Below are positions 7,454-44,656 of a DNA stretch of 64,000 nucleotides, one piece after another. The notes beneath the pieces are model-generated. The model did not search any database. It was given only the letters and a program-made list of their open reading frames with translations, and was not told the origin of the DNA. The translations under genes were made by a program, and so were the position numbers. Where the stretch lies: the NCBI GenBank assembly GCA_003697085.1, contig RFFU01000078.1:47680-111679 (forward strand), given 5' to 3'. Position 1 is the first letter of the stretch; each line of letters opens with the position of its first letter. Origin of the DNA: Candidatus Hydrogenedentota bacterium (lineage in GTDB: Bacteria; UBA8481; J006).

Positions 7454-9205
7454 TCAACAATCACGCGATATTTGCCGGCCGGTTTGTTCCTCCTCGAGAC
7501 GCCGACGGACTTGCTCCACTTCGCGATAGTATTCGTTGTCCAAGTCGACGCCCTTCTGCGCCATAAGTGCATAGAGAATCCTATCAAATCCCCAGCCGAC
7601 GCACCCGGAACAGCGCCGAACATCGTTCGGAGCGGAAAGTTCGAACTCGAACCGCGAATAGAATACTTGTCCATGGTTGTTAACGGAAACCGCCGCGATG
7701 CGTTTTCCGAGATGTGGTATGGTTAATCGAAACTCCATTTTCGATTCTTCCAGTAATTGGGCCGATTGCTTGATCTTGGAATCCTCACCAAAAAACGGGT
7801 CGGCCGCGGTATAGATCCCAAAATCGAGATCGAGGATATCCCGAAACCACAACCGAGTTTTCTCCAGAATTTCTTCCAGTCGTTCCTTGCAGAAAGCGGC
7901 ATCACCGACGACAACGATTTCCCGCATCCAGAAATTGCGAAGCCGATCGAGAATATCACCCTCGCTCTGTTCATTTCGAAAACAATTCGAAGCCGAAGTA
8001 AAAATCAAACCATTATGAGGAACCCTTTTTTTCGCCAAAGAGCTAAATATGTGGTAGCATACTGTTGGACTCGCTAGACCTCTGAAATGGCTTTCGGGAA
8101 GCACGGATTGCACCGTAAGGGCTTGGTGTTTAAAGGAATTGAGATACTGGCTTCGTGCGGCATTGGTTTGGTCGAGAATCGCCGGAACCTTTACCTCTTT
8201 CGCTCCAAGTTCTTTTGCCATCTGAAGAATAAAAAAATCGAGAGTAGAGAAGAGTCGCGTCACCTTCGAGCCATAGACCACCAACCCATCTCCCACCGGC
8301 CGGATTTCATCGTATTCCCGGAGAAGCCGTGGAAAATCCGATGTCTTCTTGACGGTCCCGACGTTTTCGTATTTGACACGCGAACGCGCCGTTCGAAGCC
8401 ATTTTCTCTGCTCCCTCGGCCGCGATAAAAAGGAGATCAGATAAAAGCGATCTTCTTTCAGTTTCTCGCCTATGACGCGATCTATATCTCGCGCTCGGAA
8501 GAGCACCAATGGCGCTCCATGAAACGTCGTTCTGCGGGCCAAATCGCGGCGGACGAGTTCCTCTTCCAAATCCTGCCAGCTGTCATCTATGTCCAGTTCC
8601 CGATATCGAACGTAGTAACGGCTTTTGACTCGAAATTCCTCCGTACCGTCCTTGATCGGTCCCCAGAAATCCTTGTAATAACGATAGGGCACGCCATATT
8701 TTTCTTCCGAAGCATAGACGCACGTGGCCCCTTTTTGGATGGGTATCCCAAACATCAAGTAGAGAAAGTCGTGTTCGAACATCTTAGCGAAAAAGGACTT
8801 CGGTCCAAAACACTCGTAACTATCGATTCGCAACAATTCATCCGCGGCCGGACCCAAGCCCGCATAGGAGAAGATCGGATGGCGCGACCGCTTTACTCCC
8901 GGATAGCGACGAAAATAGTCGGTAAGCGCTCCGACCGTGGAGGGGGTCTCCGCGACATCATAAAGTTCGCCGGAACACGCCGAATATGTGAAGGTCGGCA
9001 TCAATAACGTTCCGGCTCTTCCCACCGCAGCGATGAGCGTCTCAGTATAGACCCTGAACAGCGCCTCAACCCCCTCTTTCGCGACCAAAGGGCGTAAATC
9101 CTTGGGCACTCCGAAAGCGGAAGCATCGCTGTGCACCGCAACGACGTCTCCTTCTTTCAACCCCAAGCTTCTTAAAACGTCCAGAAGTTCTTCATATACC
9201 GTCAT
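7454..9205 (-). CDS. Fusion: AAC(3)-family acyltransferase + class II synthetase-like amino acid:carrier-protein ligase
   Basis: 583 residues in two recognisable parts. Residues ~1-265 are an aminoglycoside 3-N-acetyltransferase-family domain, with LLMPTFTYS at 67-75 and RSRHPIFSYAGLG at 106-118. Residues ~275-570 look like the catalytic core of atypical seryl-tRNA synthetases and amino acid:[carrier protein] ligases. Motif 2-like CFRNE lies at 408-412 and motif 3-like GWGFDR at 537-542. Cys383, Glu429 and Cys532 (or Cys535) are spaced as the Cys/Glu/Cys zinc ligands of that group. No tRNA-binding arm is present. Such ligases load an amino acid onto a phosphopantetheine carrier, and a carrier gene lies 9 bases upstream. 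The AAC(3) domain could then pass the aminoacyl group to an amine. Family parts are seen; the combined reaction is inferred. Confidence 0.8.
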   Translation of the reverse strand: MTVYEELLDVLRSLGLKEGDVVAVHSDASAFGVPKDLRPLVAKEGVEALFRVYTETLIAAVGRAGTLLMPTFTYSACSGELYDVAETPSTVGALTDYFRRYPGVKRSRHPIFSYAGLGPAADELLRIDSYECFGPKSFFAKMFEHDFLYLMFGIPIQKGATCVYASEEKYGVPYRYYKDFWGPIKDGTEEFRVKSRYYVRYRELDIDDSWQDLEEELVRRDLARRTTFHGAPLVLFRARDIDRVIGEKLKEDRFYLISFLSRPREQRKWLRTARSRVKYENVGTVKKTSDFPRLLREYDEIRPVGDGLVVYGSKVTRLFSTLDFFILQMAKELGAKEVKVPAILDQTNAARSQYLNSFKHQALTVQSVLPESHFRGLASPTVCYHIFSSLAKKRVPHNGLIFTSASNCFRNEQSEGDILDRLRNFWMREIVVVGDAAFCKERLEEILEKTRLWFRDILDLDFGIYTAADPFFGEDSKIKQSAQLLEESKMEFRLTIPHLGKRIAAVSVNNHGQVFYSRFEFELSAPNDVRRCSGCVGWGFDRILYALMAQKGVDLDNEYYREVEQVRRRLEEEQTGRQISRDC

Positions 9206-9214
9206 ATTCTCGAT

Positions 9215-9472
9215 TCAGCCCGTTGCTCTCTCCACATAATCGACGAGGTCTGAAAATGTTCCTATCTCCCTGAACTCCTCCGGTCCGATTTCAATATCAA
9301 AACGCTCCTCAATCGCCATTAAATAGGTTAAATGCTTGAAAGAATCCCACCCTGGTAAATTTCTGATCTCCGTCGAAAGCGAATATTTCTCGATATCCGA
9401 AAGGTGGAATGGTAAAGTCGCCAAAACGTTTTTCAACTCCGCGAATATGTCGCTCGAATTCTGTTTCGTCAT
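9215..9472 (-). CDS. Acyl/aminoacyl carrier protein
   Basis: 85 residues, acidic, with the four-helix carrier-protein pattern. Ser44 in the GWDSF motif is the expected 4'-phosphopantetheine attachment site; the usual DSL is DSF here, a common variation in specialised carriers. The ATG overlaps the stop of the upstream VOC gene as ATGA (9469-9472), indicating translational coupling. The ligase fusion starts 9 bases after its stop. It is not next to fatty acid synthesis genes, so it is more likely a dedicated carrier for the adjacent ligase than the housekeeping AcpP. Confidence 0.85.
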   Translation of the reverse strand: MTKQNSSDIFAELKNVLATLPFHLSDIEKYSLSTEIRNLPGWDSFKHLTYLMAIEERFDIEIGPEEFREIGTFSDLVDYVERATG

Positions 9473-9909
9473 TGTCCCTCCCTCTTCCGACCCGTGATCT
9501 CTATTAAACCAACATGCGGATGGAAAAAGTGAGCCGCCCAGAAACCCGGCGTCACTTGCGACGCAAATGGTTCCGTTACGAGAAAGAACCCCTGCTTCTG
9601 AAGCCGCTCCTTATCTCGCGAAAAATCCGTTACCGCGAAGCAAATATGATACAGTTGGCTCTCTCGTGTTTCAATAAGATTCTCGACCGGATTCCCTTTC
9701 TCCGCCGGTTCGACAAGTTCAATCTTGTGGTCAGTCCAGGGTGCTCCAAGATATGTGATGAAAACCTTTTGTTCTGGCTCAAGCTTCTTGTAAGTCCTTA
9801 TTTCAGGATAAAAAATCGAAAAAAACCTTATCGCGGCGTCGGTAGAACGCACCGCATAAGCAATATGATCGAGTTGGCCCCCGGGAAAAATATTTGAAAC
9901 ATCACCCAT
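9469..9909 (-). CDS. VOC-superfamily (glyoxalase/epimerase-like) metalloprotein
   Basis: 146 residues from the ATG at 9909; a longer frame back to 9984 adds 25 basic residues with no family support. Two beta-alpha-beta-beta-beta modules are visible, with the four metal-ligand positions of the superfamily occupied: His15, Glu64, His88 and Glu137. Relatives include methylmalonyl-CoA epimerase and dioxygenases, and none can be preferred here. It is the first gene of the three-gene cassette and is translationally coupled to the carrier protein, so it may modify a carrier-bound group. That role is inference from position. Confidence 0.8.
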   Translation of the reverse strand: MGDVSNIFPGGQLDHIAYAVRSTDAAIRFFSIFYPEIRTYKKLEPEQKVFITYLGAPWTDHKIELVEPAEKGNPVENLIETRESQLYHICFAVTDFSRDKERLQKQGFFLVTEPFASQVTPGFWAAHFFHPHVGLIEITGRKREGQ

Positions 9910-12856: not shown

Positions 12857-14521
12857 TCATCCAAAGACGACCCAGCGCCAAAGGTGCGGCACCGAGAGGA
12901 AAATCCAGTCCCACAGAAGTTGGACGCCGAGAAGAAGTGAAAAGATTCGTTCTCCACGCCTCGTTCCGCAAAACACCTTCACTTTCACGGCCCAAAAAGG
13001 AATCCACAAGGGAAGAACGGGAATGAGGTATCTCAGATGCGGCCAGGAATCGAAGGTGTGGGGATAGGTGATAATCACCGCAAGGTAGAGCAGGGATATC
13101 CAGAGGAAGGAGCGCACCAGGCGCCGCTCCTCATTCCGGCATCGTGATTCCCCCGCTATCCTCCGGCGTCGCCAGGGAAACAAGAGAACGAGCCAGGGGG
13201 GAAGATGGACGAAGAGCCCGATCTCGACGGAAAAGAGGTGGGCGTAGATCGCGCGGACCCATCGAGTCGGCTCCCAGAAATGCACTCCCTTGAGGCCGTA
13301 GGCGTGCGGGAGATGGTGGGGAAAGGAAAAACCAAATATCGCCGCCAAGCCCAAGAACGACGGAACCGCCCCGAGACCGAGTCCGGCCAGAACCCGGCGG
13401 CGCTTCCGAGAGAACCAGAAGAACGCAATCAGAAACGGCAATCCCACGAGCCCGAGGCGTTCGTGAAAGATTGGTGTGACCGTTGCCAGAAAGCTGCCTG
13501 GAAAGGGATCGGCATTGGTCCGAATAATTCGTTCGAGTGCGAACATCAAGGCGGGGACAATCGCGAAAAAAAGGCCTTCCGGTTGGGTATTCGTCGTGTA
13601 ATAGAGAAAGGGGGTCATGGAACCGACCGCGATGAATACGGGGAGCGAAAAAAGATCCAATTCAACAAGCATTTTCGTCAGGAAGAAGATTCCGATTGCG
13701 TAGGAAAACAGCGTGGGAAGATAGGCGATCCACCATCGGACCATCGGCACGGGAACGTGGGAGGCAACCGCGACGAAGGGAGCCAACAGCAGGGGGTATC
13801 CGAAGGGACGTTTCGACCAAAGATAAATCGGCGTGCCTCTTTCGAGGTTGAAGGTGTACCACGTGAACGAAGACGGGATCTTGCCGAAGTAGAATTCTGT
13901 CATTTTTCCTTCCCTTGTCACTCCATCGACACGCGGAACGCCGTGGTCGGCGATTCCCAGCGCTGCCGCCACATAATCTCCCTCGTCGGATTCGTTCGGC
14001 GGCTGCGTCGAGACCGCGAACGAAAGGAGAAAGACACCGAAAAAGAGGGCGGAGATAAGGCGCTTGGCGTCAGGCCTTGTTGTTTCTCGAAGGGTATGCT
14101 TCATAAGAAGCGCGGTGGCTGTTCCCGTTCCGAAAATCCACGCGGCGGAGAGGAAATGCTTGGCTGGTCCCAGCGGCGTCCCCGTCATCCCGTACCGTCC
14201 CTCGGGAAAAAGAAAAATCCCCCAAGGAAGAAGCACCGCCCCCCACGGCAGCCATGCTTCGATCATATTTTCCGTCTCCGCCTTGAAAAGCCACGCGAGC
14301 AAGGCGGTCCAAAGGATTGAGAGGCAGAAGCCGCCGGACGCGAGAATGGTTCCGGCGCGGATCATTATCTTCGTGGGAACCGCCGTGGGATGAGAACAGA
14401 CGTGGCCCGCGGCAAGGGGAAGATAGAGAGCAAGCAAGAGTCCGGCCGTCAACCCCGGCAGGCCGCGATTAAGAAGGCGTTTCAAACTATTCTTTCCTGT
14501 CTCGCTGTTATCGAGAAACAT
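12857..14521 (-). CDS. GT-C-type multi-pass membrane glycosyltransferase-like protein
   Basis: About 554 residues from the ATG at 14521; longer reading back to 14836 would run into the oppositely oriented DCC gene and gives an implausible N-terminus. It has roughly 10-12 hydrophobic segments with large loops. The acidic DEGDY in the first periplasmic loop matches the Asp/Glu pair that GT-C enzymes (PMT/ArnT/GT39-like) use near the polyprenyl-phosphate sugar donor. Donor and acceptor are unknown. It is one of four such proteins in this window. It is divergent from the DCC gene over a 168-base spacer. Confidence 0.7.
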   Translation of the reverse strand: MFLDNSETGKNSLKRLLNRGLPGLTAGLLLALYLPLAAGHVCSHPTAVPTKIMIRAGTILASGGFCLSILWTALLAWLFKAETENMIEAWLPWGAVLLPWGIFLFPEGRYGMTGTPLGPAKHFLSAAWIFGTGTATALLMKHTLRETTRPDAKRLISALFFGVFLLSFAVSTQPPNESDEGDYVAAALGIADHGVPRVDGVTREGKMTEFYFGKIPSSFTWYTFNLERGTPIYLWSKRPFGYPLLLAPFVAVASHVPVPMVRWWIAYLPTLFSYAIGIFFLTKMLVELDLFSLPVFIAVGSMTPFLYYTTNTQPEGLFFAIVPALMFALERIIRTNADPFPGSFLATVTPIFHERLGLVGLPFLIAFFWFSRKRRRVLAGLGLGAVPSFLGLAAIFGFSFPHHLPHAYGLKGVHFWEPTRWVRAIYAHLFSVEIGLFVHLPPWLVLLFPWRRRRIAGESRCRNEERRLVRSFLWISLLYLAVIITYPHTFDSWPHLRYLIPVLPLWIPFWAVKVKVFCGTRRGERIFSLLLGVQLLWDWIFLSVPHLWRWVVFG

Positions 14522-14689
14522 CTTTGTATCCGGAGTGTGGGCTGCCGGACTTCGAAACTCGATGGAGTCTGCCGAAATCTCTCGAAAAATTTTTTCCCCC
14601 CGAACCTCTTTGCTTGATCCCGGTTTTCGTTTCTCCCCTTCGGAATCTTTCCCTTTGGAAATTTTTTTTGGCAAAATAGGGATTCTGAA

Positions 14690-15064
14690 ATGGAACAGAG
14701 GACTCCAAAAGAGGGGCGCGTTCCCGTGGCCGTTTACGATGGCCGCTGCGGGCTCTGCAGGAACTTCGCGGCATTGTTGCGGAAGCAGATTCCACTCGAG
14801 GATCTCGATGTTGTCCCCTGTGGGTCGCCTCTCCAAAAGAAGCTGGCGCCCGAGGCGAACGAAGCCTGCCGAACATCATTCGTGATTGTTGAGCCCGACG
14901 GTCGCGTTCTCTCGGGAGGAGACGCGGCGGCGCGCGCCGTGGCGATGGCACCCCGCCTGAAGCCGTTCCGTTGGATGATCGACAGCCGCGCGGGACGAAG
15001 CGTCGCCCGGCGCGTCTATCGGGGAACGCAATGGTTGCGCCGCCGACGGCGCTGTTGTGAATAA
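14690..15064 (+). CDS. DCC-family (DUF393) thiol-disulfide-like protein
   Basis: 124 residues with the family signature: Asp17 followed by Cys20 and Cys23 in DGRCGLC, immediately after the first beta strand. Members have a thioredoxin-like fold and are proposed, not proven, to act as thiol oxidoreductases. The C-terminal end is very basic and ends with a Cys-Cys pair. It is a single gene, convergent with ftsX 45 bases downstream. Confidence 0.82.
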   Translation: MEQRTPKEGRVPVAVYDGRCGLCRNFAALLRKQIPLEDLDVVPCGSPLQKKLAPEANEACRTSFVIVEPDGRVLSGGDAAARAVAMAPRLKPFRWMIDSRAGRSVARRVYRGTQWLRRRRRCCE

Positions 15065-16734: not shown

Positions 16735-17507
16735 CGGGGATCCCCGGCGCGGCTCGTCCGAAATTTCTCGACGAGGCTCTTTACCTCGCCGAATCGCCGG
16801 ACATGGCGGAGAAAAGCGCCACCGATCAGAACGGCGTCGGCCCGCTGCGGCAGATCCTCCGGGCTTTCATAGCCTGACTCGGCGACAAGAAGGTAGCCGG
16901 CAGGAACATCCCGCGCCAGTTCCCGCGCTCGATTTGCATCGGTTTCGTACGAAGGACTCGAAAGATCGCGATTGTTGATCCCGACGATCTCGGTGTTTCG
17001 TGGAAGGCGTTTCAGGTCCTCGGCCGAATGGATCTCGACGAGAACATCGAGTTGCGCGTCGCGTGCCTCGTCCAAGAGGGCTTCTAGGACCGCGTCCTCG
17101 AGAAAAGCGACGATGACGAGAACGGCGTCGGCTCCGAGCACTACGGATTCGCGGATCTGTTCGGGCGCGAGGAGAAAATCCTTGCGGAGAACGGGCAGCG
17201 ACGTCTTCGCCGCCAGGTCTTCGAATTCCTCCGGGCTCATTCCAAAATGTCGATCCGAGAGGATCGAAAGGGCGTCGACTCCGGCCGCCTCGTATGCCTC
17301 CAACACCGGCCTCGGCTCGACCTCAAAGGAACCGGTGGACGGAGAGGAACGTTTGATCTCGGCGATGATGGAAAGACCGTCACGTGCCAACGCCTTCCGA
17401 AAGGAATATCGCCCCCGCCTCCGAGAACGCTTTTCCCACGGGCGCTCCTTCCGAAGACGTTCCACCTCCGCCTGTTTGGCCTCGAGGATTGTCTCGACGG
17501 AAATCAT
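16731..17507 (-). CDS. trpC: Indole-3-glycerol-phosphate synthase
   Basis: 258 residues, a TIM barrel. The catalytic lysine motifs are IIAEIKRSSPS (strand 1) and LRKDFLL (strand 4), followed by the VGINNRDL and VAESGY phosphate-site motifs. It closes the indole ring in tryptophan synthesis. No other trp gene is nearby. Instead it overlaps membrane-protein and ftsE genes at its start and stop (both ATGA), so it must be expressed with a cell-envelope operon. Confidence 0.95.
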   Translation of the reverse strand: MISVETILEAKQAEVERLRKERPWEKRSRRRGRYSFRKALARDGLSIIAEIKRSSPSTGSFEVEPRPVLEAYEAAGVDALSILSDRHFGMSPEEFEDLAAKTSLPVLRKDFLLAPEQIRESVVLGADAVLVIVAFLEDAVLEALLDEARDAQLDVLVEIHSAEDLKRLPRNTEIVGINNRDLSSPSYETDANRARELARDVPAGYLLVAESGYESPEDLPQRADAVLIGGAFLRHVRRFGEVKSLVEKFRTSRAGDPR

Positions 17508-18865
17508 CTTTCCTCCATCTGTACCAGCGTTTTTGTCACGCCGCGGATGAGAACATCAGAGTATTTCCAAAGGCAGCCAAATGCCAGCGCAACAAGACTC
17601 GTTCCCGCAAAGGATACGACGTAATGAAGAGACGGCGGGGTTATCGCCGGCAGAAAATCCGGATAACCTTCGAGGAGAATTCCGAAGGAAAAGAGGGCCC
17701 ACGTCACTTTCATAGTGCCAAGTCCGTAGTTGAAGAGCACCGGTGGCAGCGACAGGAAGACGATGCTGTCGAGGAGAAGAATCGCCGTTGTTGCCATTGA
17801 AGAAAAACGGGGAAAGGGGAGAAAGGGAGCCGGTTGCAGGAGAAAAAGCACGAGCAGGACAAAGGTCGCCGAAGCAACAGCCACAACGAACATCACCATC
17901 ACCTGAATAACGGGAAATCCCCATCGCAGATATTGTCGCAGGATGAAGAGGGAGGCGAGGACGAGCGTGCCGCGGGAGAAGAGACGAAGAGTGGGGATAA
18001 TCGTGGGATTCGCGAAGACCGGACCGAAGACTTGGTTTACGGAACCGGCCAGAAAAGAGGCCAGCAAAAGCACGAGGAACATCCGCATACTTCGGGAGTC
18101 GAAGTGATTCAGGAGAAGAATAAGGAGAAAGACGGTAAGAAGAGAGACTCCGGAGAGGGCAATCCGAGCCAAGGTCAAGAAATACGGTATCGGAAGAAAC
18201 GGAGGCACCGCGCTGAAGAGCACAACGAGAAAGAGGCCCCGCCGGACGAAGACCCGCACCTCCGAATAGGTAAATTCGTGCTCGGGATCCGACCGAAGGT
18301 GAAGCCCCGCCAGAAAGAAGAGTTCGAAGGCGGAAAGAGCCAAGGTGGGAAGCGCGAGGGAGAGCGCGGTTTTTTGTTCGAGAAAGGCAAAAAGGAGAAG
18401 GAAAAAGAGGCTTGGCGCGGTTCCTAGAACGATGACCCGCGTTCGGACGATGACGTCGATATCGCGTGACCGTCCCGGCGCGCCTGCAAGTATGAGCGGA
18501 ACGAGGAACCCGAAGAATCCGGCAAGAAAGAGTCCGTAACGAGGAAAGAGGGCGAAGACGGAAAGGAGATACCACGAATTCCTCCACCGGCCCGTTCGGA
18601 AATAAGAGGCCAGAGCGACACAGAAAGAGAGCCCCAAACCCAAGGGAAGAGCGATAACCGGTGAAAACCAGGAGGGAAGCAATGATTCCGTAAATCGTGA
18701 AAAAGCGGCGGAAAAAAGAAGGAGGATTTTGAAGAGAAGGAAGGTCCAGGTTTGAGCCAGAAGGACGGCGCGAGTCCGGCGGGCGGTCGTTCCGTGATGG
18801 CGCAGAATTCCGAAAAGGTAGATCGTGACGGCGAGATTGACGATGAGAAGAAGAACGAGATCCAT
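17504..18865 (-). CDS. Multi-pass membrane protein, unrecognised
   Basis: 453 residues from the ATG at 18865, which overlaps the upstream stop as TGATG and has GGAGG just before it; a longer frame to 19084 only reads the neighbour in another phase. Some 13-14 hydrophobic segments cover nearly the whole chain, with short charged loops and one longer arginine-rich loop near residues 210-225. I see no motif that assigns a family. It sits between another membrane protein and trpC, with overlaps on both sides. A role in envelope assembly with the FtsEX pair is possible but not shown. Confidence 0.72.
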   Translation of the reverse strand: MDLVLLLIVNLAVTIYLFGILRHHGTTARRTRAVLLAQTWTFLLFKILLLFSAAFSRFTESLLPSWFSPVIALPLGLGLSFCVALASYFRTGRWRNSWYLLSVFALFPRYGLFLAGFFGFLVPLILAGAPGRSRDIDVIVRTRVIVLGTAPSLFFLLLFAFLEQKTALSLALPTLALSAFELFFLAGLHLRSDPEHEFTYSEVRVFVRRGLFLVVLFSAVPPFLPIPYFLTLARIALSGVSLLTVFLLILLLNHFDSRSMRMFLVLLLASFLAGSVNQVFGPVFANPTIIPTLRLFSRGTLVLASLFILRQYLRWGFPVIQVMVMFVVAVASATFVLLVLFLLQPAPFLPFPRFSSMATTAILLLDSIVFLSLPPVLFNYGLGTMKVTWALFSFGILLEGYPDFLPAITPPSLHYVVSFAGTSLVALAFGCLWKYSDVLIRGVTKTLVQMEER

Positions 18866-20385
18866 CACACCGCCTCCTTCCGCCGTCTTTCGGTCTTCCC
18901 CACGAACGGGACCAACACTGCAAGAAGAGTTCCCGCTGCAAGGAGCTGTGCGCCTTTTTCGCTTTGCGTCCACATTTCCAAACCCGCAAGCGGAAAAGAA
19001 AAGAGAAAGATTTGTCTTATTAGGGAGCGGGGAACCCGTCCGAGGAAGAGCCCCAGACTGACAAACGTAAGAGGCAGCGTCCACCAGGGCGAAAGAGGGA
19101 TGAGGTCCAGAAAGAGGAAGAGAAGAAGGGGGAGAAGGAGACGAAGGTCCTTCTTGTCAGGCAATTCCGTCGAGAAGAAGAAAGCGAGAGAGAGAGCCGA
19201 GGCGGCCGCAAAGGAGTAGGAGGGTTGACCTGCTCCACGCGCGAGGAAAAGACCGGAAACGACGGCCGGTAGAAGCGTCAAAGCGGCCGCGTACCGGACC
19301 TTTTCATACGTCATTGCCAAGGCTGCGGGGGGAAAGGAGGCCGTGAGAAGAAGAAGACCTTCCCGCTCCCGTTCCGGCTGAAAGAAGAAAATGAGAAAGA
19401 GCAGAGCGGCGAGGGCGACACCGTTGCGCGCCCCTCCGCGGAAGCCCGACACCGCGAGGGAAAAGACGAGGCACCAAAGCAGAACGATCCAGGAGTAGAT
19501 CCATCGGGCCGAAGAAGTCTGCCTTGGCACGGGTGCACCAGCAACCTGCTGTATCTCGCGAATCGGCAAAACGCGGATTCCCGCGTTTCGAATCCTCTTC
19601 CAGACCTCTGGAAGGTCACGCTCCTCCGCCACGACGACCGAAACGCTATCTTCCTTTCTCCATGAGGCCGCGTCGCGTCCAACCAGTGAGTTGTCTTGCG
19701 AAAGAAAAAGCCTGTAGGAACGGACGGTCTTACCGCCGGGACCCCGCGAAATTACAAAGGAGTAGGAGGACGTTCCCCCCGGTGGAAAATCGGGATGGAA
19801 GACCTCCAGCCCGTAGTCTCTTAGGAGCCTTTCCGGAAGGGGCCCGCCGGTTCGGAGAATTTTGCGGACGGCGGAGACCGGTGCGTCGATTTCGAGGATA
19901 TAATTTCCCGGGAGATCGCCTCCAAAATTCCAGTTTCCATCGGAATAGGGGCGGACAGCTGAGGAACCGAGCGATTCGGAAAGGTCCTTGCGAAAGGTCT
20001 TGAAGAGAAGTGGATTTCCGGTAAAGAAGTATGCGGCTTCCGGGCGGATCGGTTTATCTCGAATCTGTTCCCACATATAGACATTCACGATTCCTTCCAT
20101 ACGGAAAAGCCGCAGGATCTCCGCACCGGACGCGACAGCGTAATCTCGTCCCGTTCCCTTGTTCGAGGAGGCGGCGATTAAAACGGCCGAAACGGGGATC
20201 TTCTCGATCATCGAAAGGGATCCCGTATCCTCGAGGATCGCGGTCGCCGAGGGCAGCCGTAGTGCCAAGGCCACCGCCTTCGGATGACGCGCGCTCGGGG
20301 CGGAAGGGAGGAGTGCATACTCGATCACTCCGAAAGCCAAGAGCAGACAGCCGAGAAGCGAGAGAATACGGGGAGAAGACGTCAC
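18865..20385 (-). CDS. Membrane protein with extracytoplasmic N-terminal domain (possibly DUF5693-like)
   Basis: 506 residues if it starts at the GTG at 20385. That start is set by an AGGAGGAGAAGG site and lies one base after the prfB stop; an ATG at 20472 would sit deep inside prfB. One N-terminal helix is followed by about 270 residues of soluble domain, then about eight helices. The soluble part alternates strands and helices and contains repeated mentions of a leucine-rich amphipathic block. The overall plan recalls DUF5693 proteins found beside polysaccharide pyruvyltransferases, but I hold that only weakly. It is strictly co-linear with prfB and the next membrane gene. Confidence 0.7.
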   Translation of the reverse strand: MTSSPRILSLLGCLLLAFGVIEYALLPSAPSARHPKAVALALRLPSATAILEDTGSLSMIEKIPVSAVLIAASSNKGTGRDYAVASGAEILRLFRMEGIVNVYMWEQIRDKPIRPEAAYFFTGNPLLFKTFRKDLSESLGSSAVRPYSDGNWNFGGDLPGNYILEIDAPVSAVRKILRTGGPLPERLLRDYGLEVFHPDFPPGGTSSYSFVISRGPGGKTVRSYRLFLSQDNSLVGRDAASWRKEDSVSVVVAEERDLPEVWKRIRNAGIRVLPIREIQQVAGAPVPRQTSSARWIYSWIVLLWCLVFSLAVSGFRGGARNGVALAALLFLIFFFQPEREREGLLLLTASFPPAALAMTYEKVRYAAALTLLPAVVSGLFLARGAGQPSYSFAAASALSLAFFFSTELPDKKDLRLLLPLLLFLFLDLIPLSPWWTLPLTFVSLGLFLGRVPRSLIRQIFLFSFPLAGLEMWTQSEKGAQLLAAGTLLAVLVPFVGKTERRRKEAV

Positions 20386-20386
20386 G

Positions 20387-21491
20387 CTATCCTTCTCCTC
20401 CTCGCAACCGCCATTGGACGGTTGCGTTGATGAATGCATCGAGATCGCCGTCCAGAACTCGCTGAACATCACCCCTTTCGACGTTGGTTCGATGATCTTT
20501 CACAAGCGTGTACGGTTGCAAGACGTACGAGCGGATCTGGCTTCCCCAGGCTATCTCCTTCTTTTCTCCCTGAATTTCTTGCAGCGTTTCCGCGCGTTCC
20601 CGAATCATGCGTTCATAGATTCTGGAACGGAGAATCTTCATTGCGGTGGCGCGGTTCTTGATTTGAGAGCGTTCTTTCTGGCAGGTCACGACGATGCCGG
20701 TAGGGAGGTGCGTGATCCGCACGGCCGAATCGGTGACGTTAACGTGTTGACCACCGGCTCCCGACGAACGGTAGGTATCGATCTTGAGGTCTTCGTCGCG
20801 AATCTCGACCGTGACTTCGTCCTCGACTTCCGGCATCACCTCGACCGAAGCGAAGGAGGTGTGGCGGCGGGCCGAGGCGTCGAAGGGCGAGATTCTCACG
20901 AGCCGGTGCACTCCGGCCTCGCCCCGGAGCTTTCCATAGCCGTACGGTCCCTTGACCAGAAAGGTGACCGACTTAATACCGGCTTCCTCACCGGGGAGCC
21001 GATCGAGTTCTTCCGTCACGTACCCGGAAGCCTCCGCCCATCGGAGGTACATCCGGTAGAGCATCGCCGCCCAATCGCAGGACTCCGTTCCGCCGGCGCC
21101 GGGGTGGATCGAGAGAATAGCATTGTTTTGGTCGTAGTCCTCGTGAAACGAGGCTTCCACGAGAGATTTCTCGATGGCTTCACTCAGTGAGCGGATCTCC
21201 GCCTCGCACTCACTCAGTATTCCCTGCTCTCCTTCCTCGATCGCCATCCGCGACAACTCCGAAAGGTCATCGAGCCTGCGCGAGTATTCCTCGAAGACGT
21301 CAACCTTCGACCGAACAGCGTTCAATTCCTTCATCGTTTTCGCCGCGGCGGCCGGATCATTCCAAAGAGCCGGTTCCTCCGAAGCCTTTTTCAGTTCGGC
21401 GAGGCGTCTCTTCAAACGATCGACGTCAAAGACGGTCTCCGAGTTCCGAAAGGGTCTTCCGCAAGGATGAAATTTGAGAATTGATCTCCAC
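20387..21491 (-). CDS. prfB: Peptide chain release factor 2, expressed by programmed +1 frameshift
   Basis: RF2 recognises UAA/UGA. The main frame (20387 to about 21427) has the SPF anticodon-like tripeptide in RISPFD and the GGQ catalytic motif in GAGGQHVN. The true start is a GTG at 21491 with GGAGGAG 5 bases upstream. It encodes [21 protein letters not shown] and then meets an in-frame TGA at 21426-21428. Slipping one base at CTTTGAC continues as DVDRLKRRL into the main frame, giving about 367 residues, close to the usual length. The coding join is 21491-21429 and then 21427-20387. It heads the operon running to ftsX. Confidence 0.95.
21425..21431 (-). promoter_or_regulatory. RF2 programmed frameshift site CTTTGAC
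   Basis: Read on the minus strand, CTT (21431-21429) is followed by TGA and C, the canonical slippage heptamer of bacterial prfB. A GGAG lies about 5 bases upstream of CTT and can act as the internal stimulatory Shine-Dalgarno, a little farther away than in E. coli. Low RF2 lets the ribosome slip +1 and make more RF2, so the gene is autoregulated. Confidence 0.93.
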
Positions 21492-37416: not shown

Positions 37417-37797
37417 ATGTACGAACGCAGACTCTTCACCTTCGAGGAAGCCAATCGCTTGGTCGAACCGATCAGCCTTCTTACGGCACGGGCGCGCGAG
37501 GAAATGGAACACATCTGGGAAAGCCTCAACCTCGATGTCACCGAGCGCGAACTTTCCGAAGGCTATCAGCGAATCAATGCCGCTAAACGACGCTGGTATG
37601 CGCGAATCCGCGAGCATGGGGCCGTGCCCCGTCGGCTCTGGGAAGTTGATTTCGAGACGGAATACGGCCTTGCGTTTTCCTGGCGCTTCGGGGAAAAGGA
37701 AATCCGTTATTGCCACTCCCTCCACGACTTCGGCCCCTTTCCGTTCCGCATTCCCATTCCGGCGCGACTCCTTGCCGGTAATCTCGGCGAGGTGTGA
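37417..37797 (+). CDS. DUF2203-family protein
   Basis: 126 residues from the ATG at 37417, preceded by GAGGA; the longer open frame to the left only translates the repeats. The family hallmarks are an N-terminal FTFEEANRLVEPI helix, a long charged central helix, and a C-terminal block with WRFGEKEIRYCHSLHDFGPF and an arginine-proline-rich end. Function is unknown. Its TGA overlaps the GTG of the following membrane protein. Confidence 0.8.
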   Translation: MYERRLFTFEEANRLVEPISLLTARAREEMEHIWESLNLDVTERELSEGYQRINAAKRRWYARIREHGAVPRRLWEVDFETEYGLAFSWRFGEKEIRYCHSLHDFGPFPFRIPIPARLLAGNLGEV

Positions 37798-39461
37798 GGG
37801 CCGAGACGTACTCCGACGAAGGATCGTCCCCGCCGCCGCGAACATCCGCGATTTCCGGAACAATTCTCTTCTTCGCCGTCATCGCGCTGGTTCTCTATGC
37901 CTACCTTCCTTCTCTCCGGCACATTCCCCGCGCCGACCAAATCTACTACTTCTGCGAGGCTTCCCGCTTCACCAATCCTCTTCATCCTGACATCCTCTCT
38001 CTCTCACTTGGTACACTCTCCTTCAATCGAACGAGAATTTTCGCGCCCGGGGATTATCTCCTCTTCCGCCCCCTCTTCTTTCTCTTCCTGGCGTTGGAAT
38101 ACACATTTTTCCGCGGAAACGCATTTCCGTACCAACTCACCGGCCTTCTTCTTCATCTCATTCTTCTCTGGCGCTTCGCCGTTTTGCTCCGCCGCCTCTT
38201 TCCGGACCCGCTCCATGGCGTTTTCGTCATCTTCTTCTCGGTTCTTTCCGTATCCGCGGAGGCCGTCATCTGGCAGCACGTCAACGGATATATCCTCTTC
38301 GAGATTCTTCTCCTTCTCTTCTTCGACCGTTTCTTCCTCTGGCTTCGAACCGCCCGCCTCTGGTATCTTCGCGTCGCCACCGCCTGGCTGATCCTGGCCG
38401 GATTCACTTACGAACTTGGAGTCGTCGTCGCGGCGTTGGGATTCGCGCTCTCCTTCTCCCTCCCGTGTCCTCGAGATGGTGCCGCCGCGAGAAGACACTT
38501 TTCCTTCGCCTTTTTCCTGCTTGCCGGACTCAATCTTCTCGATCTCATCGTCCGCTGGCCGCATATTCCGATGGCTCCTTCCGGTTTTCAAACGCTCCCT
38601 TCATCGTTTTCCAAGATTCTCCTACCGTTCCTCTTCCTTCCCGGCTACTGGATTCGCGCGGCCTTGCTTCCCGCGACGAATTATCGCTTTCTCACGCTTC
38701 CTCGACTGACAATCCTCCCGCGGCACGTTGTCGGCTCTTCGACGTCGTCTTTTCTTTCCGCGGCGTTTCTGGCGCTTGCTCTCTTTGCTCTCATCCTCCT
38801 TGCGCTTCGAGAGGTTCTCCTTTCGCGAAACAAAACTTCCCGAGCAGATCGTTCTTTTCTCTCCTTCGCTGGTTGCTTTCTCTTTCTCCTAAATGGCGCC
38901 TATCTGCTTCTCATCTCCGCAGGAAGAATCCTGCCTCGGGAAATCACCTACGTCTTCTGGAATCCCAATTGGAGCTCCCCCTTCTGGCTCTATCTCCTTC
39001 TCTTCCTGGCGGTTGTTATGAACCTGGCCCGGGTGGGTTTGGCGCGCACCTTCCCTCCCGAGCGCCGCGCTCTGGCCGCGGTCCTTTTCACTCTCTTCCT
39101 CTTGCTCACCGCCGACAACGCCGCTCTCACCCGCCAAATCAATCTCCGTTACGCGGATGAAATGGCTCCGCAACGAAGGTTTCTCGCGGCGCTCTCCCGT
39201 TTCGTCGAACGTCACCGGAACGAACCGGATTTCTCCTTCGCCTGGACGCGCATTCCGCGCATGGATTCGACGGGATACACACCGAACGTTGTTCGACCGG
39301 ACGGGAGTTACGCGCCGCAGCCCCTCTTCTACGCCCAATCTCTTTATGGTTCCCTGATCTCCACCGACCCGAAATACCGCGTCCGCTACGATCCAAAGAA
39401 AGGGGAAATCGACGAAGAGGTCGTCGTCAACGAGACCTCTCTTCCACCGGCACGACCGTGA
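37794..39461 (+). CDS. GT-C-like multi-pass membrane protein
   Basis: 555 residues starting at a GTG overlapping the DUF2203 stop. An N-terminal helix is followed by a loop with Asp-Gln and Tyr-Tyr and a pattern like that of GT-C glycosyltransferases, then about ten more helices and a soluble C-terminal segment of about 100 residues. There is no clear Asp-Glu pair in the first loop, so catalysis is uncertain. It is translationally coupled to DUF2203. Its 3' end overlaps the convergent lipoprotein gene by 35 bases. Confidence 0.65.
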   Translation: MRAETYSDEGSSPPPRTSAISGTILFFAVIALVLYAYLPSLRHIPRADQIYYFCEASRFTNPLHPDILSLSLGTLSFNRTRIFAPGDYLLFRPLFFLFLALEYTFFRGNAFPYQLTGLLLHLILLWRFAVLLRRLFPDPLHGVFVIFFSVLSVSAEAVIWQHVNGYILFEILLLLFFDRFFLWLRTARLWYLRVATAWLILAGFTYELGVVVAALGFALSFSLPCPRDGAAARRHFSFAFFLLAGLNLLDLIVRWPHIPMAPSGFQTLPSSFSKILLPFLFLPGYWIRAALLPATNYRFLTLPRLTILPRHVVGSSTSSFLSAAFLALALFALILLALREVLLSRNKTSRADRSFLSFAGCFLFLLNGAYLLLISAGRILPREITYVFWNPNWSSPFWLYLLLFLAVVMNLARVGLARTFPPERRALAAVLFTLFLLLTADNAALTRQINLRYADEMAPQRRFLAALSRFVERHRNEPDFSFAWTRIPRMDSTGYTPNVVRPDGSYAPQPLFYAQSLYGSLISTDPKYRVRYDPKKGEIDEEVVVNETSLPPARP

Positions 39462-40410
39462 CGCGGACCGAGTTGCGCGCTCGCCCTCCGGCTCCCTCCG
39501 CCTCGATGGAGAACGACCGTGTTTTCTTCGGCGTCAGAAGCATCGTTCCGTAGGAGGACAGCGTCTTTCCTTCGAACGTCACCGTGTCCGCTCCACTCGT
39601 ACGCCACTGCAACAACACCGCCTCACCCGGCCGGATTTCACGCGGGCGGAGTCTCAAGAGGATCTTCGGAGGAGAAGGCCGCGGCGGGACGGGGCGCGGT
39701 GGAAGGACCGAGAGAACAAGCGTTCGCGAGGTAATGAAATCCGCCGACTGGCAACTTAATTCGTAAGCCGCGTCCGCAACGGGATGAACGACTGTTTCGC
39801 CCTCCGGAGAAACGCCCAGGCCGTTGAGGTGTACGGTCGATTTTCCGGGAACACGCCAGCGCAAAACAGCCGTCTCCCCGCGCGCAATGCGCTCCGGAGC
39901 GACCGAAAAGAATATCTCCCGTTCCTCTTCAGGGGCGGGAACCGACTCGAGGAATTCCCGGCTCTTCGCGAGATAACGGTCAACCAGTCGCAGAAGAGGG
40001 GAATCGGTTTCGAGCTCGTAGGAGACGAGATGAAGGGCGACGGCGGCGCGCCGGGCCGGTATCACCTGCTCCCAATCCTTCCGCAGAAACGCCTTCAAAA
40101 GCCGCTCCCGGGATTCTTCATATTCTCGATAACGTCTCGGATAGCGCCGTTCCACCCCTCGGGAAAGCATTCGCGGAAGAATCAATTTTTCGGACCGCCC
40201 GACCGTTGCAATCCATTCCGCACCGCGTTGATGGCCTTCCTTTTCGAGATCGTGAACCGCCTTTTTGGTGAATGCATCTTGAATCACCCTTCCGGAATTC
40301 CGCGTTTCGCGGCAAGAGAAGAGGGGTACGAGAAGGCACAGAACGAGGAGAACTCCGGTTCTTCGAAGACGAGTGCTTCTCCAACGGAGCCTCAACCGAC
40401 GTAAAATCAT
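39427..40410 (-). CDS. Lipoprotein with two Ig-like beta-sandwich repeats
   Basis: 327 residues from the ATG at 40410, which overlaps the glgB stop as ATGA. A basic N-terminus and hydrophobic stretch end in a lipobox-like Leu-Phe-Ser-Cys, so it is probably lipidated and exported. A helical middle section (about 30-150) is followed by two similar repeats (about 165-225 and 245-310). Each contains an R-x-G-E-x-x-x-L-x-W core, an Ig-like or PKD-like beta pattern, joined by a proline-rich linker. Function is unknown. Coupling to trehalose and glycogen genes is unexpected for an envelope protein. Confidence 0.75.
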
Positions 40411-42761
40411 CGCGTATCCCGCGGAACCTCGAGCCAAAGGGTTGCCAAGGGGGGCAGAGTCAATGTCGCCGAACAGGGAAGTCCGTGGGACGGTGATTCC
40501 ACGGCTTGGATGCCTCCTCCGTTCCCGACGTTGCTTCCGCCGTAGTACAAAGAATCGGTATTGAGAATTTCACGATAGAATCCCTTCCGCGGAAGCCCGA
40601 TCCGGTAATGGTGTCTCACGACCGGGGAAAAATTTCCGATCACGACCATTTCCCGTCCTGTGGACGGCGAAATTCTTCGAAAGGCGATCGTGTTCGTGTC
40701 CGCGCCGTGGGTATCGATCCATTGAAATCCGGCCGGATCATTGTCCCGCTCCCAAAGTTCCGGCGACGCCAGATAATGCCGATTGAGATCCCGAACGAGG
40801 TTGAAGACGCCCCGGTGCGGCGCCCAGTCCAGCAGGCTCCAATCCAGCGCTTGGTAATACCGCCACTCCCTCCTTTGCGCAAACTCGTTCCCCATAAAAA
40901 GCAACTTCTTCCCCGGATGACTCCACATGTACGCATAAAGCGCTCTCAAATTCGCAAATTTCTGCCACTCGTCGCCCGGCATCTTGCCCAAAAGCGACCC
41001 CTTTCCGTGGACGACCTCGTCGTGGGAGAACGGGAGGATGAAATTCTCGTTCCAAGCATAGACCAACCCGAAGGTAAGGTTGTCATGGTGATAACGCCTG
41101 AAGATCGGATCGAGGTGAAAGTAATGGAGAGTGTCGTGCATCCATCCCATATTCCATTTGAAGGTAAACCCGAGTCCCCCCAAATAGGTCGGGCGGCTCA
41201 CACCCGGCCATGCCGTCGATTCCTCCGCGATCATCATCGCGCCGGGAAACCGTTCGTGCGCGATCTCATTGAGGCGTTTGAGGAATTCGACGGCATCGAG
41301 GTTCTCTCGTCCCCCGTACCGGTTCGGTACCCACTCACCGGGTTTTCTCGAATAGTCGAGGTAGAGCATCGAGGCGACGGCATCGATTCGCAAACCGTCC
41401 GCGTGAAACTCCTTGAGCCAATAGAGCGCATTGGCGAAGAGAAAATTTTGAACCTCCTTCCGCCCATAATTGAATATGAATGTATTCCAGTCCGGATGCT
41501 CGCCTTGCCGCGGATCGAGGTGTTCATAAAGCGCCGTGCCGTCGAAGCGACCGAGCGCAAAGCCGTCCTTCGGAAAATGAGCCGGCACCCAATCCAGAAT
41601 CACTCCGATCCCGCGCGAATGAAGATGATCGATGAAAAAGCGGAAATCGTCCGGGTCCCCATACCGGCTCGTCGGAGCGAAATAGCCGGTGACCTGATAG
41701 CCCCACGATCCGTCGAACGGGTACTCCATCACCGGCAGCAGTTCGACGTGGGTGAAACCGAGATGGGAGAGGTAATCGCCCAACTCCGGCGCCAGTTCCC
41801 GGTAACTCAGCGGACGGCCGCCTTCTTCCTCACGTCGCCGCCAGGAACCGAGATGCATCTCGTAAATCGTCATCGGCGTTCCCAACGGGTCCCGCTTTCG
41901 TCTCGCCGCCATCCAGTCGTCGTCGGTGAATCGATACCGCGAATGAAAAACGCATGAAGCACGCTTCGGAGGATGTTCGGCGTATCGCGCATAGGGGTCC
42001 GCCTTCTGAAACACATCCCCCTCCCGCGTCCGAATTTCGTATTTGTAAAGCACGCCGGGTTTCAAATCCGGAATAAAAATTTCCCGAATACCCGAGGCCC
42101 CCAACGGCCGCATTACGTGGTAACGAGCGTCCCAGTCGTTCCACTCGCCCACCACGCTCACCCCGGCCGCGTTCGGTGCCCAAACGGCGAAAGACACTCC
42201 TCGCACGTTATCGACACGGCGGTAATGCGCTCCCAACTTCTCGTAGATCCGCTCATGCCTTCCTTCCGCGAGAAAATAGAGATCGAGTTCCCCTACTGTC
42301 GGAAGAAAGGCATAGGGATCGCGGATCGAAAAGCGCGTTCCGTCCGCGCGCTCGATCTCGAGACGGTACCGAAAGAGTGTTTTCCGGCGCGGCAAGGCCG
42401 CCTCGAAAAAGCCCCACTCATGGCATTTCAACATCGGAACACGCCGTACCCGCGACTTCTCCTCGATCAGCAACTTCATCGAGACGGCATCCGGCCGATA
42501 GGCGCGTACGATGACCCCGGCCGAGGTGGGGTGGATGCCGAGAACGGAATGAGGATCGGGGTGGTTGAGCGAAAGAATCCGCCCGATTTCGTGCACCGAC
42601 ACGGTGGCTTCGACAAGGAGGCGCAGAGGTGGCCGCCGCCGAAGACGCCGCTTTTTTCCGGCCTTCCGCGCGGTCCTGGATCCGACGTAAACCCGCGTCG
42701 TCCGCCGCAGCGGTCGCTGCGGATCATTCCTCCCCCGCCGCGCCTTTCCCTCTCTCTTCAC
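40407..42761 (-). CDS. glgB: 1,4-alpha-glucan branching enzyme
   Basis: 784 residues, GH13. An N-terminal carbohydrate-binding region precedes the catalytic barrel, whose nucleophile is in LRIDAVASM, acid/base in IAEEST and transition-state aspartate in FSHDEV. A basic extension of about 40 residues starts the protein. It makes alpha-1,6 branches in glycogen. It overlaps treZ by 4 bases (ATGA), forming a treY-treZ-glgB operon that would convert linear maltodextrin either into branched glucan or into trehalose. Confidence 0.96.
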
Positions 42762-44656
42762 GCGATCTCTCCTTCGCCGGAATTCCGCTGTATATAGATA
42801 ACCGCCGTCCGCGGTGCAAGCGAAACTTCCTTCTCACGCTCCGCCGTCTCTGGAAATCGGATTCGGAACGGCCCCTCGGGAATCCACCCGCTTCCCCCGT
42901 AACGTTCTTCCTCCGAACAGAGCACCGGCTCCCACCGCCCCGGCAATCGGGGCCACGGTAGGATCCCTTCCTTCTCCGAAAAATTGGCGGCGGTCACGGC
43001 AAACCCCGTTTCTCGATCCCCCAACAGAACCAAGCACCACGATTCATCCTCATCTCCGATCACCGTACATCTCCGCCGGTCGCAGGAAGCCAAGACCGGA
43101 ATCCGCCGGCGCAACCGCAACAGGTCGCGCACGAGATTCCGGTGATGCGCGCCGGGGGGACGCAACGACGCGGAACGATCCAAGCGACAGAGAGCAAACG
43201 TCTCCGGATCGCTTGGATCCGGAGGGGCCTCCCGAAAGAGTCCGGCGTATTCTCTCGCCCGACCGATTCGAATCCTCTCGAGAAGCGCCGCGTCCGGATA
43301 ATCGACGAAATAATGAAACGGCGCCCGCTCCCCATACTCCTGCCCCATAAAAAGCATTGGAAGGTACGGCGCCGTCAGTAAGATCACCGTGGAGCAACGA
43401 AGAAGCGCCGGCTCCAGCAACTCCACCTCCCGCCTCCCCCCCGATGCGTTCGCCACTTGATCATGATTCTGTGTGAAGATCACGAAACGCTTCCCCGAAC
43501 AATCACCGGGAGACCGACCGTGCCGTCGCCCTCGATACCTGGAATACTGCCCCGTAAAGACATACCCCTCCGAAAGCGCCTGCGCCAGTTCCTGCAACGA
43601 CCCGAAATCCTGGAAGTACCCGGAACGATCTCCCGTCAGGTAGGTCCTCAGCGAATGGTGGAAATCGTCGTTCCACTGTGCATCCAGACCGTACCCTCCC
43701 TTGGAAGAAGGGCGTATCACGCGGGGATCGTTCCGGTCCGACTCAGCGATCAAATACGCCTTTCTCCCCAGTCGGTCCGCCTCCGAATGAAAGCGTTCCG
43801 CCAATTCCTCGAGAAACGGATACGCACTCCGGTCGAAGATCGCGTGGACGGCGTCGAGCCGAAGAGCGTCCACGTGATAATCGCGCAACCACATCAGCGC
43901 ATTCTCGATGAAGTACGCCCTGACCGCGTCTGAACCGGGGCCGTCGAAATTAATCGCGTGCCCCCAGGGCGTACGATAGCGATCCGTAAAGTAGGGGGCA
44001 CAGAGCGGAAGAACATTTCCCATCGGGCCCAGATGGTTGTAAACGACGTCGAGGACGAGGCAGAGACCGTGAGCGTGACAGGCGTCCGCCAGCGCCGCAA
44101 ATCCACGCGGTCCGCCGTAGGAAGCCTGCACCGCATAGGGAAACACCCCGTCGTAACCCCAATTCCTCTCTCCCGGAAACGCCGCGATCGGCATCACTTC
44201 GACGGCCGTCACGCCAATGTCCGCCAGCGACGGCAGAGCCTCGATGATCCCCTCGAATCTTCCGGAAGGCGAAAAGAGCCCGGTGTGAACCTCGTAGAAG
44301 ACGTATTCCTCCAGCGGTCGTCCGCTCCATTCCCCGTCCGTCCACGAAAAATTTTCCGGGGCTACGACCTCCGAATCCCCCTCCACACCCTCCGGTTGAA
44401 ACCGCGAAGCAGGATCGGGCAGGAGGATCTTCTCGTCGCCGAGAAACTTGTAACGAAACCCCTCTTCCACCCCGGAAAGCGTAACTCCGTGCCAGCCGTC
44501 CCCGAGCGGTTCGAGCGGAATCGGAGATCTCTGCTTCAGAGCCGGCACGAGGCTGACCGAAGAGAAGGAGGGCGCCCAAATTTGAAACCGCGTTCCTTCT
44601 CCAACCCGCACCGCGCCGTGCAACGGAAGCGGAGGTGTATCGAACGGCTCGTTCAT
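42758..44656 (-). CDS. treZ: Malto-oligosyltrehalose trehalohydrolase
   Basis: About 632 residues from the ATG at 44656, which gives an ATGA overlap with treY; five codons upstream is a less likely GTG. GH13 subfamily with an N-terminal beta domain. Catalytic motifs are [20 protein letters not shown] and FTQNHDQ. The YNHLGPMGN and GPGSDAVR segments are characteristic of TreZ. It releases trehalose from maltooligosyl trehalose made by TreY. Confidence 0.94.

Follow-up and report, generated by a model that had tools for sequence, protein, structure and literature searches.

An AAC(3)-fold domain fused to an amino acid:[carrier protein] ligase-like domain in a Candidatus Hydrogenedentota bacterium: a candidate carrier-dependent N-acylation system

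We describe a 583-residue protein that is a true two-domain fusion, in which a domain of the Antibiotic_NAT (AAC(3)) fold is followed by a domain resembling the amino acid:[carrier protein] ligases; its gene lies in a three-gene cassette with those for a carrier protein and a VOC-fold protein. As far as we have found, it is the sole example of an AAC(3)-ligase fusion. Our preferred reading, to which we assign a probability of roughly 55%, is that the cassette is an acquired, single-polypeptide form of a carrier-protein-based N-acylation system. The DNA comes from a Candidatus Hydrogenedentota bacterium (GTDB UBA8481; J006; assembly GCA_003697085.1), a member of a very sparsely sampled phylum, the genome of which is a draft in 145 contigs; the window, that is, the whole stretch analysed, comprises 64,000 nt (positions 47,680-111,679 of contig RFFU01000078.1), and the coordinates below are those of the window.

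Two-domain architecture and the cassette

The gene for the fusion (7454..9205, minus strand) is one continuous open frame. Pfam places Antibiotic_NAT (PF02522) at residues 51-243 (E 5.6e-32; 111.6 bits against a cut-off of 25) and tRNA-synt_2b at residues 400-550 (E 5.8e-9). Among PDB sequences, the top match to the whole fusion is Bll0957 (3mey, E 4.4e-19), followed by AAC(3)-IVa, which matches the N-terminal half. With the fusion's sequence alone as input, AlphaFold2 reached a pLDDT of no more than 34.6; the model that we used drew on 15 AAC and 41 ligase homologues and has a mean pLDDT of 82.8. When this model was compared with known structures by VIA-align, residues 1-274 matched AAC(3)-IVa (6mn3) with Z 27.9, and residues 303-553 matched a glycine:[carrier protein] ligase with its carrier (4h2w, 4h2s) with Z 22.3, the related structure 3mf2 with Z 22 and the Methanosarcina SerRS with Z 19.0. 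We thus delimit, all on the minus strand, an AAC(3)-fold domain (residues 1-262; 8420..9205), a linker of low to middling model confidence (residues 263-302; 8300..8419; pLDDT 43-75 in the blocks covering residues 261-310) and a class II synthetase-type core of the amino acid:[carrier protein] ligase or atypical SerRS kind (residues 303-557; 7535..8299). Residues 341-376 are poorly predicted, and the sequence is shorter there than in other aligned ligases. A chance match of the two halves is excluded by these E-values and by the fit of each modelled half to its own structural relative. The first-pass annotation had read these 583 residues as an AAC(3)-family domain joined to a class II synthetase-like domain; Pfam, NCBIfam, PDB comparison and model all bear this out, both of the domains that it named (Antibiotic_NAT and tRNA-synt_2b) were matched, and the resemblance of residues 275-570 to SerRS-like ligases, on which it had staked its reading beforehand, was found (Z 22.3 to 4h2w/4h2s).

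The top NCBIfam match of the C-terminal half is the amino acid--[acyl-carrier-protein] ligase family (PRK07080, E 9.1e-35), ahead of atypical serine--tRNA ligase; the score of 120 bits does not reach the equivalog cut-off of 357 bits, and a stand-alone Chloroflexota ligase also falls under it (168.6 bits). SerRS profiles align to this half by their C-terminal catalytic part only (for example, positions 318-498 of 518), which agrees with the earlier remark that the tRNA-binding arm is missing, and profile searches found no tRNA-binding domain in the fusion. Three zinc-type ligand residues, all encoded on the minus strand, align with those of 3mey: Cys383 (8057..8059), Glu429 in an MRE motif (7919..7921) and Cys535 in an SGC motif (7601..7603) that corresponds to the TGC of 3mey. 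Each is kept in 41 of 41 ligase rows of a trial alignment of homologous ligases. Residue 532 is also a Cys, but not at the conserved position, so that of the trio first proposed (Cys383/Glu429/Cys532) the first two members stand and the third gives way to Cys535. The arginines of motif 2 (R410) and motif 3 (R542) are likewise kept. Fold, metal-ligand residues, the arginines of the class II motifs and the carrier gene next door all agree, so that activation and carrier loading are well supported, as the first-pass annotation had supposed, and we think it likely that the C-terminal half would load an amino acid onto the neighbouring carrier. To our knowledge, the physiological role of the stand-alone amino acid:[carrier protein] ligases has been unclear ever since their discovery as synthetase relatives.

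The order of genes in the cassette is VOC, carrier protein, fusion, all on the minus strand. The acyl/peptidyl carrier protein (ACP; 9215..9472; 85 residues; PF00550 above cut-off), with its predicted phosphopantetheine-bearing Ser44 in a GWDS motif, ends nine bases before the ATG of the fusion, and its start codon shares the four bases ATGA with the VOC stop codon; both the spacing and the coupling had been correctly noted at first pass. An ACPS-type phosphopantetheinyl transferase is encoded in the same genome. The surroundings are of a housekeeping kind, with ilvH/ilvC on one side and manC 512 bp downstream; glycan genes are not adjacent to the cassette, and no other biosynthetic genes lie inside it. 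The GC content of the cassette, 44 to 51%, lies below the window median of 57.7%, and the two halves of the fusion (52.0 and 49.2%) are low, as are the ACP and VOC genes beside them. In view of this low GC and of the position between ilvH/ilvC and manC, the cassette is probably an acquired island of horizontal origin. Elsewhere in the window, four long ORFs gave no hit to Pfam: 17504-19084, 18865-20472 and 37794-39461 at E 0.001, and 12857-14836, which reads as a glycosyltransferase-type membrane protein, at E 1. A run of three alpha-amylase-family genes, one of them GlgB-like (branching enzyme), occupies 40407-47535.

The third gene (9469..9909, minus strand) encodes a VOC-fold protein that profile and sequence comparison place near CmaC and methylmalonyl-CoA epimerase, both VOC enzymes acting on thioesters. 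Its closest annotated plasmid relatives are CmaC, to which it is 35% identical, and a Rahnella VOC protein within a carrier-protein cluster; a similar VOC gene stands between FkbH and AAC(3) in Clostridium tepidiprofundi (locus L103). Four putative metal-ligand residues (H15, E64, H88 and E137) align with the ligands of 1jc4; all four are kept in the Rahnella protein and the first three in that of L103. Where methylmalonyl-CoA epimerase has its second catalytic Glu (Glu48 of 1jc4), the protein has Ile51; assignment of the gene as a methylmalonyl-CoA epimerase was considered and dropped. CmaC reportedly closes the cyclopropane ring of coronamic acid while the amino acid is bound to a carrier (on this enzyme, PMC6050322 cites Kelly 2007); no halogenase gene was seen in the cassette. 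Taken together, the CmaC and Rahnella relatives and the VOC gene of L103 point to alpha-carbon chemistry on a carrier-bound acyl group, and suggest that the protein may act in this way, for instance as an epimerase, on a carrier-bound amino acid.

The AAC(3)-fold half, related loci and the rarity of the fusion

A key feature of the N-terminal half, unremarked in the first-pass annotation, is the loss of a catalytic residue. AAC(3) enzymes carry a TxxHxxE motif, the His of which deprotonates the amine and is stated to be completely conserved (PMC8956665). In the window this motif reads T161-C-V-Y164-A-S-E167: the Thr and Glu are kept, and the His is replaced by Tyr164 (codon TAT; 8714..8716, minus strand). 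The His is present in 69 of 73 aligned AAC domains; the four exceptions have Tyr (L032 and the domain in the window), Leu (L086) or Val (L023). The motif PYRYxKxFxG of the carrier-linked subfamily is kept, and the score against the NCBI AAC(3) profiles is 64 bits, against a cut-off of 420. With Tyr164 in place of the His, either some other residue must serve or the AAC half is weak or a mere scaffold. We lean slightly towards a role for this half in passing the amino acid to an amine, and regard the odds that the acceptor is an amino sugar as even. The first-pass annotation had proposed just such a transfer, perhaps to an amino sugar; the proposal gains from the genomic context of the AAC(3) subfamily and loses from Tyr164 and the housekeeping neighbours, and it is because of these last two features that we infer, rather than observe, both the transfer step and a glycan acceptor.

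That context emerged when species genomes were scanned with a pair of peptide patterns, one for each half. The scan returned 80 loci; since it ranks loci higher when both halves match, the locus counts given here are not frequencies. Members of the same AAC(3) subfamily adjoin, or are fused with, carrier loaders of three kinds, namely FkbH, adenylation domains and the amino acid:[carrier protein] ligases. These partners recur across many phyla, and nonulosonate (NeuB), DUF4910 and glycan genes are frequent neighbours. Ligase and AAC(3) occur as separate neighbouring genes in 29 Chloroflexota loci, mainly from Anaerolineales, spaced by 14 to 1050 bp in 28 of them and by 2564 bp in the other; by a strict motif, 21 of the 29 have an ACP immediately upstream of the ligase. 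A frequent order is NeuA-NeuB-ACP-ligase-GNAT-AAC(3)-DUF4910, and the fuller loci hold NeuA, NeuB (confirmed with NCBIfam), a large glycan protein, in many cases a methyltransferase, then ACP, ligase, GNAT, AAC(3), DUF4910 and sulfotransferases. AAC(3) stands beside FkbH and ACP as separate genes in L063-L065, L067 and L103, is fused to FkbH in L116, L122, L124, L131 and Maritalea L021, and lies beside an adenylation domain in, for example, L066, L068, L069, L080, L083, L118, L141 and L023; the last of these, from Solidesulfovibrio, is a carrier-linked AAC(3), with adenylation domain and ACP, that also has no His (Val). Many stand-alone ligases have non-glycan neighbours (for example, L022, L024, L046 and L048). 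The theme common to the AAC(3) loci is a carrier loader together with an AAC(3) fold, often within nonulosonate or DUF4910 glycan loci.

Several of these loci merit description in their own right. The AAC(3)-FkbH fusions, from Pseudomonadota, are about 820-960 residues long (L021, 8001-10460; L116, 8818-11448; L122, 8944-11496; L124, 1948-4443; L131, 8977-11847); several lie near NeuB or DUF4910 genes, and they have the same design with a glyceryl-type loader. In L025 (6451-7653) and L065 (8527-9744), behind FkbH and ACP, the AAC(3) domain follows a MaoC/hotdog-like N-terminal domain in a protein of 400-405 residues, and in L026 (6876-8822), L027 (6627-8540) and L074 (8932-11067) a single ORF joins AAC(3) to a DUF4910-like peptidase domain. 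In L031 (5386-8499), from another sparsely sampled phylum, a stand-alone amino acid:[carrier protein] ligase occurs with an ACP and a formyltransferase-like gene, in surroundings that read as heptose and sugar-nucleotide genes. In Campylobacter jejuni (L068, 7685-10778) the order is DUF4910, AAC(3), adenylation domain, apparently in the Cj1295-Cj1297 region, which suggests that the AAC(3)-like gene there, annotated as an N-acetyltransferase, works with a carrier loader.

As to possible acceptors, other contigs of the same genome carry strong NeuB genes, many aminotransferase genes and a DUF4910 gene that adjoins one for a DegT aminotransferase; one NeuB cluster includes genes that we call PseG-like and NeuA-like from reading the sequence rather than from profile searches. 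There are documented O-antigens in which amino sugars bear N-acetylalanyl and N-acetylglycyl groups (PMC3210612), and Cj1295, a DUF4910-type gene, has been linked with a di-O-methylglyceric acid derivative of pseudaminic acid (PMC3068675). The system in the window may act on amino sugars of this sort.

A database scan for the same architecture, envisaged in the first-pass annotation, yielded no second AAC(3)-ligase fusion: none was found by whole-genome searches of about 830 other genomes, among plasmids and phages, in viral contigs (four scans) or in the only other genome of the same phylum that was compared, nor in one scan of 84,980 species genomes, which is weak evidence of absence because it was limited by its two peptide patterns. 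In phylogenetic trees, the AAC half of the window falls near AACs paired with FkbH and adenylation domains (96/67 support) and outside a well-supported Chloroflexota clade. Holding it together with the Chloroflexota AACs was rejected (AU p 0.0015); the same grouping test for the ligase half, itself a long branch, gave p 0.087. Bearing in mind that both halves sit on long branches, which makes their placement tentative, the AAC result argues that the AAC(3)-ligase pairing probably arose twice, independently.

Proposed mechanism and alternatives

We envisage a process in three steps. In the first, strongly supported by sequence and model, the ligase domain would activate an amino acid with ATP and load it onto the phosphopantetheine of ACP Ser44. 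In the second, the VOC protein may epimerise the amino acid, or otherwise alter it at its alpha carbon, while it is bound to the carrier. In the third, suggested by genomic context, the AAC(3)-fold domain would take the aminoacyl thioester and join its acyl group in amide linkage to an amine, most likely that of a sugar, nucleotide-activated or nonulosonate, destined for a surface glycan. Since the usual catalytic His is Tyr164, this last step would call for another general base or proceed weakly, or the domain might merely position carrier and acceptor. The complete scheme, in which an L-amino acid is loaded, epimerised on the ACP by the CmaC-like VOC protein and moved to an amino sugar by the Tyr164 AAC(3) fold, is quite unlikely to hold in every particular; if true, it would assign a definite function in vivo to an amino acid:[carrier protein] ligase and to a VOC-type aminoacyl-carrier epimerase.

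It is conceivable, if on the unlikely side, that the ligase half loads the carrier while the AAC-fold half is a catalytically dead module for docking or acceptor binding, and another transferase releases the amino acid. The position of Tyr164, at a general-base His kept in 69 of 73 domains, favours this, as does the use of His-to-Ala mutants as catalytically inactive or impaired AAC-fold enzymes (PMC8956665); against it stand the retention of T161, E167 and PYRYxKxFxG, the intact modelled fold, and the Solidesulfovibrio protein, which is carrier-linked and also lacks the His. We rate as unlikely a pathway to a small molecule or modified amino acid of the coronamic acid type, in which the VOC protein alters the loaded amino acid at its alpha carbon, the AAC half releases or amidates it, and no surface glycan is involved. 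The VOC protein's kinship to CmaC and to the Rahnella protein would suit such a pathway, as would the work of the AAC-fold enzyme FrbF in phosphonate biosynthesis (PMC8956665) and the non-glycan neighbours of many stand-alone ligases; the repeated association of the AAC half's subfamily with NeuB, DUF4910 and glycan genes, and the absence of other biosynthetic genes from the cassette, weigh against it.

An assembly or frameshift artefact of a metagenome-assembled genome seems very improbable: although the genome is a draft and no second fusion was found, the 583-residue frame is continuous, its halves are alike in their low GC, as are the flanking genes, and the AAC-FkbH fusions elsewhere have the same design. 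The notion that an aminoglycoside-resistance AAC(3) was joined by accident to a synthetase-like domain draws on the likeness of the fold to that of AAC(3)-IVa (Z 27.9) and is scarcely credible in the face of the absent His, scores far under the NCBI AAC(3) cut-offs and carrier-loading partners that recur across many phyla; plain aminoglycoside resistance was considered and dropped as a function.

Comparison with known systems

The closest structural counterpart of the ligase half is Bll0957 of Bradyrhizobium (3mey, 4h2s; PRK07080), with which it shares the class II core of atypical SerRS, the Cys/Glu/Cys set and the arginines of motifs 2 and 3; in common with ligases of this type, it has no tRNA-binding domain and an ACP next door. 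It differs in being about 26-28% identical in structural alignments, in standing behind an AAC(3) fold, in being shorter than the aligned ligases between residues 358 and 379, and in scoring under the NCBI equivalog cut-off. Through one such fusion and 29 Chloroflexota neighbourhoods, amino acid:[carrier protein] ligases are found in the company of both an acyltransferase fold and genes for nonulosonate glycans, and aminoacylation of surface sugars thereby becomes directly testable as a role for these ligases.

With the Antibiotic_NAT or AAC(3) enzymes (AAC(3)-IVa, FrbF and YokD) the N-terminal half shares the complete fold (Z up to 27.9) and the Thr and Glu of TxxHxxE; in contrast to them, it has Tyr164 for the His and is linked to a carrier and its loader, and its closest sequences are members of glycan clusters, not resistance enzymes. 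The ACP-ligase-(GNAT)-AAC(3) clusters of Chloroflexota (Anaerolineales; for example, L077, L097 and L104) unite the same three functions, but as separate genes in the opposite order, within NeuA/NeuB/DUF4910 glycan loci, and with the AAC His kept. The AAC(3)-FkbH fusions, and the operons of AAC(3) with FkbH and ACP, also have a loader joined to or beside AAC(3), often with DUF4910 or NeuB genes, but that loader is the HAD-type (glyceryl) FkbH, not an amino acid ligase. These comparisons suggest, for one AAC(3) subfamily whose annotation is antibiotic resistance, a general role in the carrier-dependent acylation of sugars, the loader being exchangeable: FkbH, an adenylation domain or an amino acid:[carrier protein] ligase.
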